NCBI GenBank assembly: GCA_029863275.1 | Contig: JAOTVS010000005.1 | Location: forward strand, 1 to 58,609 | Reading direction: 5' to 3' | From: Candidatus Nitrosopumilus sp. | GTDB lineage: Archaea > Thermoproteota > Nitrososphaeria > Nitrososphaerales > Nitrosopumilaceae | DNA length: 58,609 nt | In this document: positions 33,305 to 39,365 of the stretch, one piece after another | Numbering within the stretch: position 1 is the first letter of the stretch | Layout of the letters: each line of letters begins with the position of its first letter | Made by a program: the position numbers and the translations under genes | Notes under the pieces: generated by a model | What the model saw: only the letters and a program-made list of their open reading frames with translations | Database searches by the model: none | Told to the model about the DNA's origin: nothing

Positions 33305-34093
33305 TTGAGTGACTCAAAAAAATCTAGAGATGCTGAAGATATTTTATCCGAATTTCAAGATTCAAAAAAATCTGGGTCACAAGCCGAACCTGAACCACAA
33401 CTAGAAGCACCAGAACCTGAACCACAACTAGAAGCACCAGAACCTGAACCACAACTAGAAGCACCAGAACCTGAACCACAACTAGAAGCACCAGAACCTG
33501 AACCACAACCAGAAGCACCAGAACCTGAACCACAACTAGAAGCACCAGAACCTGAACCACAACTAGAAGCACCAGAACCTGAACCACAACTAGAAGCACC
33601 AGAACCTGAACCACAACTAGAAGCACCAGAACCTGAATCACAACTAGAAGCACCAGAACCTGAACCACAACTAGAAGCACCAGAACCTGAACCACAACTA
33701 GAAGCACCAGAACCTGAACCACAACTAGAAGCACCAGAACCTGAACCACAACTAGAAGCACCAGAACCTGAAGTGCAATCTGGAACACAAACTAAAGAGA
33801 AAACTAAATCCTTTGTTCCTGAAGAACGCAATGTAATTTACGTAGGAACCAAACCAATAATGTCATACGTTGCAGCCACACTCACACAACTTTCAACTTT
33901 CAACACTGTCACCATAAAAGCTAGAGGTAAAAGAATTACACAAGCAGTGGATGTGTCTCAAATGATAGTAAAAAGAATGGATTCTGTTGGATATGAAATA
34001 AGCGATGTACGAATTTTATCTGATTCCCTTATTTCCCAAGATGGAAAACAAAGAAATGTTTCCTCGATTGAACTTGACATTACTAAAAAATAA
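33305..34093 (+). CDS. Alba-domain nucleic-acid-binding protein with long N-terminal Glu/Pro repeat region
   Basis: The 262-residue protein is read from TTG 33305. Residues 1-27 are polar. Residues 28-153 are 14 tandem copies of EPEPQLEAP (single changes in copies 5 and 10). A short linker follows, then the Alba domain at ~175-262: RNVIYVGTKPIMSYVAATLT, VTIKARGKRITQAVDVSQMI, DVRILSDSLI and SSIELDITKK. Alba dimers coat DNA or RNA. Normal Alba is about 90-100 residues, so the repeat arm is an addition, highly acidic and probably extended. It may shield or regulate binding or recruit partners. Confidence 0.92.
   Translation: MSDSKKSRDAEDILSEFQDSKKSGSQAEPEPQLEAPEPEPQLEAPEPEPQLEAPEPEPQLEAPEPEPQPEAPEPEPQLEAPEPEPQLEAPEPEPQLEAPEPEPQLEAPEPESQLEAPEPEPQLEAPEPEPQLEAPEPEPQLEAPEPEPQLEAPEPEVQSGTQTKEKTKSFVPEERNVIYVGTKPIMSYVAATLTQLSTFNTVTIKARGKRITQAVDVSQMIVKRMDSVGYEISDVRILSDSLISQDGKQRNVSSIELDITKK
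33386..33763 (+). repeat. 27-bp tandem repeat (14 copies) inside the Alba gene
   Basis: Fourteen near-identical 27-base units, each encoding EPEPQLEAP, run head to tail without spacers. Copy 5 encodes QPEAP and copy 10 EPESQ; otherwise the copies are almost base-identical, including synonymous positions. This implies recent expansion or gene conversion. A partial fifteenth unit (EPEVQ) follows at 33764. Copy number should vary among strains through slippage. Confidence 0.95.
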
Positions 34094-34543: not shown

Positions 34544-35473
34544 TTGATCTTATCTTTGGTTTTACAAATTATCAATGCAGATACTGTCTGTGGACGTTGT
34601 GGAAGTAGTATGGTAACCGATAATGTTACTGGAGAAAGATTTTGTGGAAAATGCGGTAATGTTTTCTCTGAGACATTACTTGCTTCTGGGCCTGAATGGA
34701 GATCTTTTTCGAAAGATGGGGGTACGGATCCTACAAGAACTGGTGCACCAACATCCCTTGCGATGCATGATAGAGGACTTTCAACTATTATTAACCCGAT
34801 TAACCGGGACGCATTTGGAAAGCCCCTTACATCTACCATGAAAAGCAGCATTGAAAGGCTACGAACCTGGGATAGCAGAAGTAAGGTCAATGCATCTGTA
34901 GATAGGAATCTTAGACAAGCATTAAGCGAATTAACTAGACTAAAAGACAAACTTTCACTTTCTGACTCCATAATTGAAAAATCAGCATACATTTACAGAA
35001 AAGCATTAGAAAAAGGTTTAGTCAAAGGTCGTTCAATTTCAGGAGTTATTGCAGCATCACTTTATGCTGCATGTAGAGAAACTGAAACACCAAGAACTCT
35101 AAAAGATGTTTCCTATGCAGGTAACCTTAAGAAAAAAGATGTTTCAAAATGTTATCGATTACTGCATCAAGAATTAGGACTTGTAATGCCAGTGGTTGAT
35201 CCCATTCAATGTGTTGCAAGAATTGCGAGTAATCTTGGAATTACAGAAAAAACCAAACGTTATGCAGTTAAGATACTAAAAATTGCACAGGAACATGAAG
35301 AATCATCTGGAAAAGATCCAATGGGATTAGCAGCAGCAGCATTGTACATGTCATCTGTAAAGAATGGTGAAAATATTACTCAGAGAGATATTGCTGAATC
35401 TGCAAATGTTACTGAGGTAACTATCAGAAATCGATACAAAGGTCTAAGATTAGATCAGAACAAGAATTCGTAG
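34544..35473 (+). CDS. tfb: Transcription initiation factor B (TFB), second copy
   Basis: The 309-residue protein is read from TTG 34544; TTG 34556 is equally plausible given a TATA-like element at 34519. It has a zinc ribbon (Cys 16, 19, 34, 37), the linker SGPEWRSFSKDGG and GAPTSLAMHDRGLS, and two cyclin folds ending in the BRE-binding helix TQRDIAESANVTEVTIRNRY. Compared with the copy at 16.6 kb it is clearly paralogous but diverged in the ribbon and linker. Multiple TFBs allow alternative promoter programmes. Confidence 0.96.
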   Translation: MILSLVLQIINADTVCGRCGSSMVTDNVTGERFCGKCGNVFSETLLASGPEWRSFSKDGGTDPTRTGAPTSLAMHDRGLSTIINPINRDAFGKPLTSTMKSSIERLRTWDSRSKVNASVDRNLRQALSELTRLKDKLSLSDSIIEKSAYIYRKALEKGLVKGRSISGVIAASLYAACRETETPRTLKDVSYAGNLKKKDVSKCYRLLHQELGLVMPVVDPIQCVARIASNLGITEKTKRYAVKILKIAQEHEESSGKDPMGLAAAALYMSSVKNGENITQRDIAESANVTEVTIRNRYKGLRLDQNKNS

Positions 35474-35523: not shown

Positions 35524-35634
35524 ATGATTAAAGAAAAATGTGATAGATGTGGTTCACCTTTAGGTACTGAAAGTAGGAAAACTAAGGAAAGATTTTGTGG
35601 AAATTGTAAAAGAAAATTTCAATTACAGAGATAG
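35524..35634 (+). CDS. 36-residue zinc-ribbon miniprotein
   Basis: The ATG lies about 50 bases after the TFB stop. The product MIKEKCDRCGSPLGTESRKT then KERFCGNCKRKFQLQR has CxxC-x(15)-CxxC with a basic end. It resembles an isolated TFB-type zinc ribbon (compare ERFCGKCG of the adjacent TFB), so it could be a detached ribbon paralogue able to compete for RNA polymerase. That idea is inference from similarity and position. Confidence 0.6.
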   Translation: MIKEKCDRCGSPLGTESRKTKERFCGNCKRKFQLQR

Positions 35635-35891
35635 ATATTTGCTTTGATTGAATGATTGATTTTTTCTTGATAGTCAATAAATGTAATTCTTATTTTTTGT
35701 GCTTTTTCAGAGACTAACATTGAACTGTGGTGTGATTTATTGGCAATTATTCAATTTTATCAGATAAATTCCAGTACCTATAATATCTAAAATTTCTTTT
35801 TATCATTTCTAAATGAGATCTATGACATTCTTTAGTGAAGGGTATTTTGCTATTACCTGCTATATTAAGCCCAATTTACGCATAAAACAAG

Positions 35892-36728
35892 GTGAATAAG
35901 TCATTACTTCAGTATTATTGTGAACACTGTCACTATGCTCTCAAGGAATTAGATTCTAATATTGACAAGACTTGTAGTGTGGAATCATGTCCATGTTGTG
36001 GTACACTTTTGAGTGAATCACTACAACGAAAAATATTCCAAACTGTTCATTCTCCTGCAATTGTATTTCAACGAGCATCACAATTACCAAAGATAACGTT
36101 TGATATTGACAAGATTGACTCTATTTTGAATTTTCTTACACCTGATCAAAAAATATGTCTTGCAGGAATCCACACTCAAAAACTAGTAGAGCGACTGTGT
36201 GTTAGAGCACAACTCTCTTGTAGGTATGGAGGGCTTGATTCTAAAGTGCTACTAATTGATGGTGCTAATAGCTCTGATTTGTATCAATGTGTTGATTTTG
36301 CGCAACAATATGGATTAGATGTAAAAAAAATTTTATCTGGAATAATTTCATGCAGAACATTTACTGTTTATCAACTTGCAAATTTGATTGTAAATGAATT
36401 AAGTAATATGATAAAACAACATGATATAAAAATAGTGATAATCACTCACTTACTACATTTTTTTACAAATGATCCTTATTTGGACTTAAATGAAATGCAA
36501 CAAATACTAAAAACAGTTGTACAGTCTCTAAAATCAATAAAAAACTGCCTGGTTGTAATTTCCTTTGGATTCCCCACTGCATTTGATGGGATGCTGTTAC
36601 AGCTATTTTCAAAAACCATAACCATAAAACAAAACTATAATGTATTATCTGTCCATATTGATAATTTGGGTAAAACCCAATCAGTATTAATTGATGAGCA
36701 TACATTTACGACCATACCTCAAAACTAG
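35892..36728 (+). CDS. Degenerate RecA/RadA-like protein with N-terminal zinc ribbon (PolB2-operon type)
   Basis: The 278-residue protein starts with GTG. Cys 10, 13, 33 and 36 form a zinc ribbon. Residues ~70-278 follow the RadA/Rad51 core order: a strand and loop where Walker A should be (CLAGIHTQKLVERL, no GxxxxGKT), VLLIDGANSSDLY, QQYGLDVKKILSGIISCRTF then TVYQLANLI, and a Walker B strand IVIITHLL without Asp. ATP hydrolysis is therefore unlikely. Members of this type accompany archaeal PolB2 genes. It is the first gene of a tight operon with two miniproteins and a divergent PolB. It may bind DNA or a recombinase and load the polymerase. Confidence 0.75.
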   Translation: MNKSLLQYYCEHCHYALKELDSNIDKTCSVESCPCCGTLLSESLQRKIFQTVHSPAIVFQRASQLPKITFDIDKIDSILNFLTPDQKICLAGIHTQKLVERLCVRAQLSCRYGGLDSKVLLIDGANSSDLYQCVDFAQQYGLDVKKILSGIISCRTFTVYQLANLIVNELSNMIKQHDIKIVIITHLLHFFTNDPYLDLNEMQQILKTVVQSLKSIKNCLVVISFGFPTAFDGMLLQLFSKTITIKQNYNVLSVHIDNLGKTQSVLIDEHTFTTIPQN

Positions 36729-36736
36729 GTGATCTT

Positions 36737-36976
36737 TTGGGTAGAACAATTCCATCATTTCGTATTGCGTTATATCAAGAAGAAAAAAAATGGAAAGTAT
36801 TTCGTACAGCACTTGACAGAAAAAACAAAAAAATTTTTGATGATGTATTTGCAACATCTAGACAATACATTTCAGCATGCATGATGGCTTGCAGACCAGT
36901 TAGACTGGAATCTATATTTATGGTAGTAATTTTTCATCATTTTAAGCAAATTTTGAGCCTAGGTGAGCCTGATTGA
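36737..36976 (+). CDS. Helical miniprotein 1 of the PolB-like operon
   Basis: The 79-residue product starts at TTG 36737, eight bases after the RecA-like gene. It is predicted to be helical: EEKKWKVFRTALDRKNKKIF and DDVFATSRQYISACMMACRP, then a hydrophobic helix (ESIFMVVIFHHFKQIL). It is paralogous to the next gene: both share WKxF...L....K.FD.......YI.A at the same spacing. Its TGA overlaps the TTG start of that gene. No known family is recognised; it may be an adaptor in the complex. Confidence 0.7.
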   Translation: MGRTIPSFRIALYQEEKKWKVFRTALDRKNKKIFDDVFATSRQYISACMMACRPVRLESIFMVVIFHHFKQILSLGEPD

Positions 36977-37206
36977 GCCTATTTCCAGACGATGATTTGC
37001 TCTCAAAGGAAATTGAATCCTGGAAGGCTTTTGGCGATAGTCTTCGTGCAGACGATAGAAAACTTTTTGATAAAATGATCAGACAATGCTACCAATACAT
37101 CAAGGCAATTAATTCCAAAGGACCCACATATACAACATCCTCCTTACTAATGTCTTTAATTCTGATACAACACCAAATGATACAGTTTTTGTTAAATAAA
37201 AAATGA
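36973..37206 (+). CDS. Helical miniprotein 2 of the PolB-like operon, paralogue of the preceding one
   Basis: The 77-residue product starts at TTG 36973 inside the stop region of the previous gene and ends in an ATGA overlap with the polymerase gene. It contains EIESWKAFGDSLRADDRKLF and DKMIRQCYQYIKAINSKGP, then a hydrophobic helix LLMSLILIQHQMIQFLL. The alignment with miniprotein 1 is gap-poor and shows an ancient tandem duplication. The conserved pairing suggests a heterodimeric helical factor. Function unknown. Confidence 0.7.
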   Translation: MSLFPDDDLLSKEIESWKAFGDSLRADDRKLFDKMIRQCYQYIKAINSKGPTYTTSSLLMSLILIQHQMIQFLLNKK

Positions 37207-39365
37207 TCCATGGATATCTTTTTGATGTATATCCATTAAATGATAAGATAGTTTTATGGATTAGAAATAAAAAAACATACAGATTAGAAATACAATGGAC
37301 TCCCTCTCTTTATGTTGCATCTGATACTAGATACAAGCTAAACTTGTTACCAAAAAACCCCAGGATAATTCCTTTAATTAAAAAATACAAGTGGGTAAAT
37401 AAAATTGAAAAAGTATCTGACTTGAAAGAATCCAAAGTCTTAAAATTAACTGTAAAAAACTGTTCTAATCTTACACTATTAGGAAAAACAATAGAGGAAC
37501 TTGATAGATTTGGTGTGTATAGACTGTATAATGTAGATGTTCCACCTGCTCAAAGTTTTATGTATGAGAATGATCTGTTTCCACTTGGCAAATATAAAAT
37601 AAATAATACATGGATGCCCCAATCTAATATTTTAGAAACTGATTACAAATTACCATCATTTACAAAAATAAATTTTAGAGTAAATGCAGAAGCTGTTAAA
37701 AAAATTCCCCAGTTTACAGATAAAATAAAATCCATTCAAATAAATGATGTTATCTTGGAGTCAGATTCTGAAGAGCAAATAATTCTTGATTGCACTCAAA
37801 TGCTAAAAGACATTGATCCTGATTTTATCATGACAAAAAATGGTGACTCTTGGGATTTCCCATATCTTGCATTTAGAGCTGCAAAAAATAACATTTCAGA
37901 AAAAGTGGTCTTAGGTCGAGAAGAAAACTATCCTATTGCAATGCCAAAAAGAACTGGCACGTCATACTATTCTTATGGGCAGGTTCATTTCAAGCCTATA
38001 TCTGCCCAATTATTGGGAAGAATTCACATTGATCGCTCAAATGCATTCCTATGGGAAACAGAACAATCCCTTCAGGCAATCCTTGAGATTTCACGAACAT
38101 GTAGACTACCGATTCAGACTGCAGCGCGTGCATCTATTGGAAAATGCATGAGCTCAGTTCAGTTCTATAACGCTACAAAAAGAAATCTTTTGATTCCTTG
38201 GAAGCCTATAGTATCTGAGATTTTTAAAACAAGAATGGATTTATTGGTAGGAGATCGTGGTGGTCTTATCTTGGAGCCACGCGTTGGTGTACATGAAAAT
38301 GTCGGAGAGATAGATTTTGCATCTTTGTTTGGAAATATAATGCTTCAAAAAAACATATCAGCCGAGACAATAAATTGTAAATGTTGTCCGGATTCTATTA
38401 ATGTGGTACCTGAACTTGGATATAATATTTGCAAAAGACAAGGAATTATTCCACAGTCTTTGCATGTATTATTAGAGAAAAGAAAAAAATATACTGCATT
38501 AATAGAGTCAACAAAAAATAAACAAAAATCAGAAATGTTTAAACAACGAAAGGCTGCACTAAAATGGATTCTAGTTACATCATTTGGATATTTAGGTTTT
38601 AACAATGCAAAGTTTGGAAGAATTGATGCTCATATGGCAGTATGTGCATTTGCAAGAAAACTATTACTACAAGCAATAAAGATTGCAGAAGAAGAAGGGT
38701 TTACAATATTGCATGGTATAGTTGATTCATTATGGGTGTACAAGAAAAACTCAACTGTTCATGATTATGAAATGTTAAGAGACGTAATTGCAAAAAGAAC
38801 AGAATTTGATTTATCTCTTGGTGTGTATAACTGGATTGTATTTTTACCTTCAAAAAATAATTCAAATCTCCCTGTTGCAAATAGATATTTTGGTGCAAAC
38901 AAAGATGGCAAGTTAAAACTTCGTGGTATTGAAACAAGACGACGTGATATACCGAAATTTTTCAAAGAATGCCAATATGATATTTTGAATTTATTTGCAA
39001 AATGTAGCACTTTATCAGAAATTAAAGAGCAATTACCTGAGGCCAAATCCATACAAAATCGGTACAAAAAACGGCTTTTTAGGCATGAATTATCCATAAA
39101 AGATCTTGCATTTACAAACAGGGTAACGCGTGGAACTGGACAACACAAAAGCAACACAATTCAAGCAGACTCTATACGTCAGCTAGAGTTAGAAGGTCGT
39201 AATATTGATCCTGGACAAAAGATTCATTATGTGATTAGTGATTATTCTAGAAAAATCTCTCATCGTGCAGTCCCAATTGAATTTGCCAAAAACTATGATG
39301 CAAAAAAATATTCACAACTACTTGATGAGTGCTGTAAATCTATCTTGGATTCATTTGATAATTAA
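37203..39365 (+). CDS. Divergent family B DNA polymerase (PolB2-like), exonuclease-deficient
   Basis: The 720-residue protein shows PolB order. The exonuclease-like domain keeps ExoII (NGDSWDFPYL, ~213-222) but lacks the ExoI Asp/Glu (KINFRVN in that place) and a clear ExoIII. The palm has motif A DFASLFGNIM with Asp 371, then GIIPQSLHVLLEKRKKY, motif B KWILVTSFGY (454-463) and motif C HGIVDSLWVYK, where the first Asp is Ile 506 and Asp 508 is retained. In B-family enzymes the motif A Asp and the second motif C Asp hold the catalytic metals, so weak polymerase activity is possible without proofreading. ATGA couples it to the gene before. It overlaps the DUF72 gene by 4 bases. Confidence 0.85.
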   Translation: MIHGYLFDVYPLNDKIVLWIRNKKTYRLEIQWTPSLYVASDTRYKLNLLPKNPRIIPLIKKYKWVNKIEKVSDLKESKVLKLTVKNCSNLTLLGKTIEELDRFGVYRLYNVDVPPAQSFMYENDLFPLGKYKINNTWMPQSNILETDYKLPSFTKINFRVNAEAVKKIPQFTDKIKSIQINDVILESDSEEQIILDCTQMLKDIDPDFIMTKNGDSWDFPYLAFRAAKNNISEKVVLGREENYPIAMPKRTGTSYYSYGQVHFKPISAQLLGRIHIDRSNAFLWETEQSLQAILEISRTCRLPIQTAARASIGKCMSSVQFYNATKRNLLIPWKPIVSEIFKTRMDLLVGDRGGLILEPRVGVHENVGEIDFASLFGNIMLQKNISAETINCKCCPDSINVVPELGYNICKRQGIIPQSLHVLLEKRKKYTALIESTKNKQKSEMFKQRKAALKWILVTSFGYLGFNNAKFGRIDAHMAVCAFARKLLLQAIKIAEEEGFTILHGIVDSLWVYKKNSTVHDYEMLRDVIAKRTEFDLSLGVYNWIVFLPSKNNSNLPVANRYFGANKDGKLKLRGIETRRRDIPKFFKECQYDILNLFAKCSTLSEIKEQLPEAKSIQNRYKKRLFRHELSIKDLAFTNRVTRGTGQHKSNTIQADSIRQLELEGRNIDPGQKIHYVISDYSRKISHRAVPIEFAKNYDAKKYSQLLDECCKSILDSFDN

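Follow-up and report, generated by a model that had tools for sequence, protein, structure and literature searches.

A probable PolB2 mutasome operon with two PPB2 genes in a Nitrosopumilaceae archaeon

Layout, surroundings and distribution of the operon

Four genes on the forward strand occupy positions 35892–39365 of a 58,609-nucleotide stretch of DNA from Candidatus Nitrosopumilus sp., the whole of which is called the window below. The first gene (iRadA, 35892–36728, GTG start) encodes a protein of 278 residues with a zinc-ribbon-like N-terminus and a RAD51/RadA core devoid of the Walker A and Walker B motifs. After a gap of 8 bases, a TTG codon starts the gene of a small helical subunit of 79 residues (PPB2A, 36737–36976), which carries the N-terminal arm MGRTIPSFR. 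This gene shares a TTGA overlap with that of a second small helical subunit of 77 residues (PPB2B, 36973–37206, also with a TTG start), which is without MGRT and has a conserved N-terminus of its own, MSLFPxDD. An ATGA overlap leads to the gene of a polymerase of 720 residues (PolB2, 37203–39365, ATG start), in which the motif A Asp (D371) and a PolC motif of the form HxxxD (H504, D508) are recognized, and from which ExoI and ExoIII have been lost. The four genes and their junctions are as a first-pass annotation of the same DNA had read them. Operons in which PolB2 is accompanied by an inactivated RadA and by a small helical protein (arCOG07300) were described by Makarova in 2014 (PMC4104785). 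The names PPB2 and iRadA come from Timinskas in 2025 (PMC11791011), where an assembly of PolB2, iRadA and a PPB2 trimer was modelled in silico and the term mutasome was used.

The operon is preceded on the same strand by a conserved block of about 50 bp (35840–35891), which holds a GGT-N11-ACC dyad (GGTATTTTGCTATTACC) followed by a TATA-like element, TATTAAG, about 26 nt 5' of the GTG start. The block is near-invariant before iRadA in four relatives of the same genus, in which the DNA further upstream diverges, and it recurs at an equal distance upstream of iRadA in loci L014/L062. The spacing of the TATA-like element fits a leaderless message, and the block is a candidate promoter. With up to three mismatches allowed, it is found only once in its own genome (chance expectation in the window, 0.02); a regulon with a common promoter block was rejected on account of this uniqueness. 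About 400 bp separate iRadA from a TFB gene further upstream (34544–35473), and three Nitrososphaeraceae loci (L047, L050, L054) also have TFB genes, 1–2.5 kb downstream of PolB2. As TFB is often multi-copy in these archaea, this proximity may be due to chance. A reading frame of 36 codons with two CxxC pairs (MIKEKCDRCGSPLGTESRKTKERFCGNCKRKFQLQR) is located between the TFB gene and the operon (35524–35634), and positions 33305–34093 encode an Alba-domain protein whose N-terminal part contains a long repeat made of EPEPQLEAP-like units.

Downstream, the only DUF72 gene of the genome (39362–40147, reverse strand; Pfam DUF72, E = 3e-50) is convergent with polB2 and overlaps its stop codon, with 4 bases in common. 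Enrichment of DUF72 genes near PolB2 operons has been reported (PMC11791011). This conserved neighbour, absent from the first-pass annotation, adjoins the PolB2 operon in 10 of 28 Nitrososphaeria loci and in 7 of 52 other loci, and is a candidate accessory gene. Its orientation varies in other Nitrososphaeria; in bacteria it is on the same strand, downstream of the PolB2 operon. The genes nreA and dpo4 had been taken as support for a repair theme. Both are indeed present in the window, where dpo4 is a separate gene 3 kb upstream of the operon on the opposite strand, but the linkage is not conserved. Neither was found within about 4.6–6 kb of PolB2 in the relatives checked, and their membership of the module was rejected for this reason.

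The sample used for comparison consists of 80 named loci from a genome scan, in Nitrososphaeria, other archaea and bacteria. They are the 80 loci that match the query best, which leaves distant groups, Sulfolobales for example, under-represented. The order iRadA-PPB2-PolB2, adjacent and on the same strand, is common to archaea and bacteria in this sample, and the four-gene order of the window recurs in about ten other Nitrosopumilaceae genomes, with PolB2 identities of 49–80%. The initial reading had been made to depend on conserved linkage, which holds across Nitrososphaeria and into bacteria. The operon is not a chance arrangement, since its order recurs in relatives and its four genes all have pN/pS ratios between 0.10 and 0.20.

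PolB2 is present in about 12 of 250 Nitrosopumilaceae genomes, and the operon is dispensable, as so many of these archaea are without it. PolB2 stands alone at seven Nitrososphaeraceae loci, one of which is a contig fragment, and iRadA-PPB2A-PPB2B is found elsewhere in several of those genomes. Both PolB2 and iRadA were present in all ten Nitrososphaeraceae genomes chosen for PPB2, even where they are unlinked. In a tree calculated without a PolB3 outgroup, the window polymerase groups with the polymerases of PolB2 operons, and the PolB2 of Nitrososphaeria are monophyletic (100/99). As this single clade broadly tracks taxonomy, horizontal transfer into the class was rejected in favour of the simpler explanation, loss in many Nitrosopumilaceae. 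No PolB2 relative was among 352 pattern hits in viral contigs, which thus give no sign of a viral source. Orphan genes of armed PPB2, with neither iRadA nor PolB2 as neighbour, were observed in the Nitrososphaeraceae genus g30 (L121–L130, L199, L200); there are several per genome, with about nine matches in G251/G365, and some contain internal stop codons.

Two types of small subunit

PPB2A and PPB2B are homologous, as had been noticed from their alignment. Direct comparison of the two gave a match with an E-value of 2e-4, and iterated profiles merge them. Neither matched a Pfam family above its curated cut-off, or any NCBIfam family. The predicted model of PPB2B is helical with a pLDDT of 88, and a structure search of the PDB returned no match below an E-value of 1.5, so that the sigma-factor-like fold reported for PPB2 is neither supported nor excluded.

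Among the best 80 matches to the query, both types are encoded in all 21 Nitrososphaeria loci that have PPB2, and a single PPB2 is encoded in all 45 such loci from other archaea and bacteria; in this sample the second PPB2 is confined to Nitrososphaeria. Where PPB2 genes are duplicated, the MGRT arm is reported to be always on a single copy (PMC11791011). The motif is borne by exactly one copy in 20 of the 21 Nitrososphaeria operons, the start of the A copy falling outside the open frame in the last one (L051). In the window, the arm is on PPB2A only.

In a maximum-likelihood tree that rests on only 79 columns and places one divergent B copy (L056) loosely, all the Nitrososphaeria A copies form one clade (98/98) with the orphans and the N-terminal halves of natural A-B fusions, and a branch supported at 100/99 parts this clade from the B copies and the C-terminal halves of the fusions. 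The sequences thus point to a single old duplication as the origin of the A and B types. The fusions are six proteins of 182–202 residues from three complete genomes of genus g24 (G306, G298, G303; L186–L191), up to three per genome. Their N-terminal half is of A type, and over their C-terminal half the B profile outscores the A profile. Two of them adjoin a diverged iRadA. The g24 genomes, of 2.3–3.6 Mb, each encode PolB2, away from the fusions. Over five species of the window genus, pN/pS is 0.20 for iRadA, 0.17 for PPB2A, 0.10 for PPB2B and 0.20 for PolB2. PPB2B is the most constrained of the four proteins, and with such a low ratio it is not a decaying duplicate.

Published models of the A and B copies form homo- or heterotrimers with similar confidence (PMC11791011). 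As homotrimers of either copy are plausible (PMC11791011), PPB2B might remain outside the polymerase complex. The trimer would then consist of PPB2A only, and PPB2B would assemble into a homotrimer with a function apart, for instance in regulation or in binding another repair factor through its LFPxDD arm. The conserved N-terminus of PPB2B is compatible with such a role, as is the existence in Nitrososphaeraceae of orphan A-type genes without B neighbours. This arrangement is nevertheless rather unlikely, as both copies accompany each other in every Nitrososphaeria operon examined, A and B form one chain in genus g24, and in the window genus the B gene sits between those of A and PolB2 with overlapping codons. 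The plainest interpretation places A and B together in a single assembly, and the gene comparisons support, short of proof, a mixed A/B small-subunit assembly.

It is proposed tentatively that the PolB2 mutasome of Nitrososphaeria obligately uses two small subunits, an armed PPB2A and an unarmed PPB2B, which would have split once before the class diversified, and that the mixed trimer fixes one PolB2 per assembly. The same proposal includes a module dispersed in some lineages: given the A-B fusions, the iRadA-PPB2 genes away from PolB2 and the many orphan armed PPB2s, armed PPB2 may have roles beyond PolB2.

The inactivated RadA and the polymerase

iRadA matches the Rad51 domain of Pfam with an E-value of 3e-11, and a Foldseek search with its predicted structure retrieved RAD51 filaments (8.8e-16). 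The AlphaFold pLDDT exceeds 90 through the core. The N-terminal helical domain is absent, and the RadA/RAD51 fold lacks its ATPase residues: the Walker A motif and the Walker B Asp are missing in all 40 aligned sequences, namely that of the window and 39 relatives from archaea and bacteria. The motifs DGxN and RxFTxxQ are conserved across the alignment and constitute the signature of the iRadA family itself. The early description of a RadA-like core (DGANS, RTFTVYQ) deprived of both Walker elements is thus borne out. The zinc ribbon that had been assigned to this protein is also upheld by the cysteine pairs C10/C13 and C33/C36, which are kept in relatives, though the pLDDT of this region is below 50, as it is for almost all of the first 47 residues. 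A simple pattern search revealed no clear PCNA-binding motif at the C-termini of iRadA and PolB2.

The polymerase matches Pfam DNA_pol_B with an E-value of 1e-25 and the NCBIfam type B polymerase model with 6e-113, under the cut-off of that model. The PolB1 of the same genome, encoded on another contig, matches the PolB2 query mainly over its C-terminal 430 residues (29%). The PolC motif of PolB2 reads HGIVD (H504-GIV-D508), Ile506 taking the position of the first motif C Asp and D508 being kept; HxxxD is the form given for PolB2 in place of YxDTD (PMC8764526). Of 82 aligned rows, 81 have the motif A residue D371 and one has a gap there. No variation is seen among the aligned Nitrosopumilaceae and Nitrosotalea sequences at the Asp of motif A, in motif B (KxxLKWILVxxFGYLGFNN) or at the second Asp of motif C, and both Asp residues are also invariant in the wider family. 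It had been recognized from the outset that D371 and D508 are retained and that the first Asp of motif C and ExoI are gone. The protein had also been called exonuclease-dead; ExoI and ExoIII are indeed absent by comparison with the PolB1 of the organism, but the ExoII motif NGDxxD (213–218) is retained, which calls for a small correction.

The missing first Asp of motif C and the missing exonuclease motifs, together with the earlier literature, would favour a catalytically dead PolB2 in a structural or regulatory complex, for example one in control of replication or of fork processing, a view put forward before 2020. This is highly improbable in view of the conservation just described for the motif A Asp, motif B and the second motif C Asp, and because the PolB2 of Sulfolobus, which shares the HxxxD motif, is a robust, active translesion extender (PMC8764526) that is required for targeted mutagenesis (PMC8764526, PMC7390963). 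Inactivity does not follow from the term degenerate, used at first for archaeal PolB2 lineages, since the active Sulfolobus enzyme has the same loss in motif C (PMC8764526). The Sulfolobus Dpo2 (PMC8764526, PMC7390963) resembles the window protein in its PolB2 family, HxxxD PolC motif and exonuclease loss; the window protein is larger (720 against 540–582 residues) and keeps the ExoII motif. By analogy with Sulfolobus, PolB2 of the window is expected to be an active, non-proofreading polymerase.

Relation to known mutasomes and proposed mechanism

The window, from an archaeon in the genus of Ca. Nitrosomaritimum, very probably contains a PolB2 mutasome operon of the family already described, presumably working by the mechanism proposed for it. 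All the defining features of this family that were tested at the sequence level were found: gene content and order, MGRT arm, Walker-less iRadA, HxxxD PolC motif and exonuclease loss (PMC11791011, PMC4104785), to which are added the DUF72 neighbour and a second PPB2 without MGRT (PMC11791011). The first-pass annotation had put forward a putative archaeal mutasome in which the two miniproteins serve as adaptors. The system is not new (PMC4104785, PMC11791011), and the mutasome reading itself agrees with the modelled assembly of PolB2, iRadA and PPB2 trimer (PMC11791011).

The parallel drawn at that stage was with another system. In bacterial ImuA-ImuB-DnaE2, a RecA-like protein and an error-prone polymerase are encoded together. 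An ImuA-ImuB-DnaE2-type mutasome can be dismissed as a class assignment, even with a RecA-like protein without normal ATPase motifs adjoining an error-prone polymerase, because the operon has no Y-family ImuB or C-family DnaE2 gene, its polymerase belongs to the B family and PPB2 matches no known family. What survives is a loose analogy. The closest functional parallel is E. coli Pol V (UmuD'2C-RecA), in which an error-prone polymerase is likewise joined by a partner of the RecA family and an arm of the small subunit lies close to the active site (architecture according to PMC11791011). It differs by its Y-family polymerase, active RecA and unrelated small subunit; the window operon encodes a B-family polymerase and not a Y-family UmuC with UmuD, and the likeness is one of analogy only.

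In the proposed mechanism, PolB2 would act as a B-family polymerase devoid of proofreading, able to extend primers beyond lesions or mismatches. iRadA, with its RAD51 fold and presumed lack of normal ATP binding, would dock on PolB2 as a RadA subunit does on the next RadA, and may in this way direct the polymerase to DNA that is stalled or coated with RadA. The MGRT arm of PPB2A would insert close to the DNA, in the cleft that separates PolB2 from iRadA. The armless PPB2B would most likely fill the remaining places of the helical small-subunit trimer around PPB2A, which would keep the number of armed copies to one or a few. For the organism of the window, we infer formation of the complex, the A/B stoichiometry, the translesion role and induction by damage.

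The case of the window is ordinary in kind and well supported, and its interest lies in the constant A/B pair. Relative to the described mutasome, as presented in the main text of PMC11791011, the second PPB2 is here a class-wide, old and highly constrained paralogue with its own conserved N-terminus; the natural A-B fusions and the orphan PPB2 genes of relatives are absent from that main text. The constancy of the pair in the Nitrososphaeria operons examined is, on the same basis, a modest addition to the published model. The two constant PPB2 types, with their fusion in one genus, offer a clean test of the published small-subunit trimer assembly. Ammonia-oxidising archaea are abundant in oceans and soils, and their damage tolerance is little studied. 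The PolB2 machine probably lets the cell copy past DNA damage, and the PolB2 mutasome present in part of these archaea is a concrete candidate for damage-induced mutagenesis.
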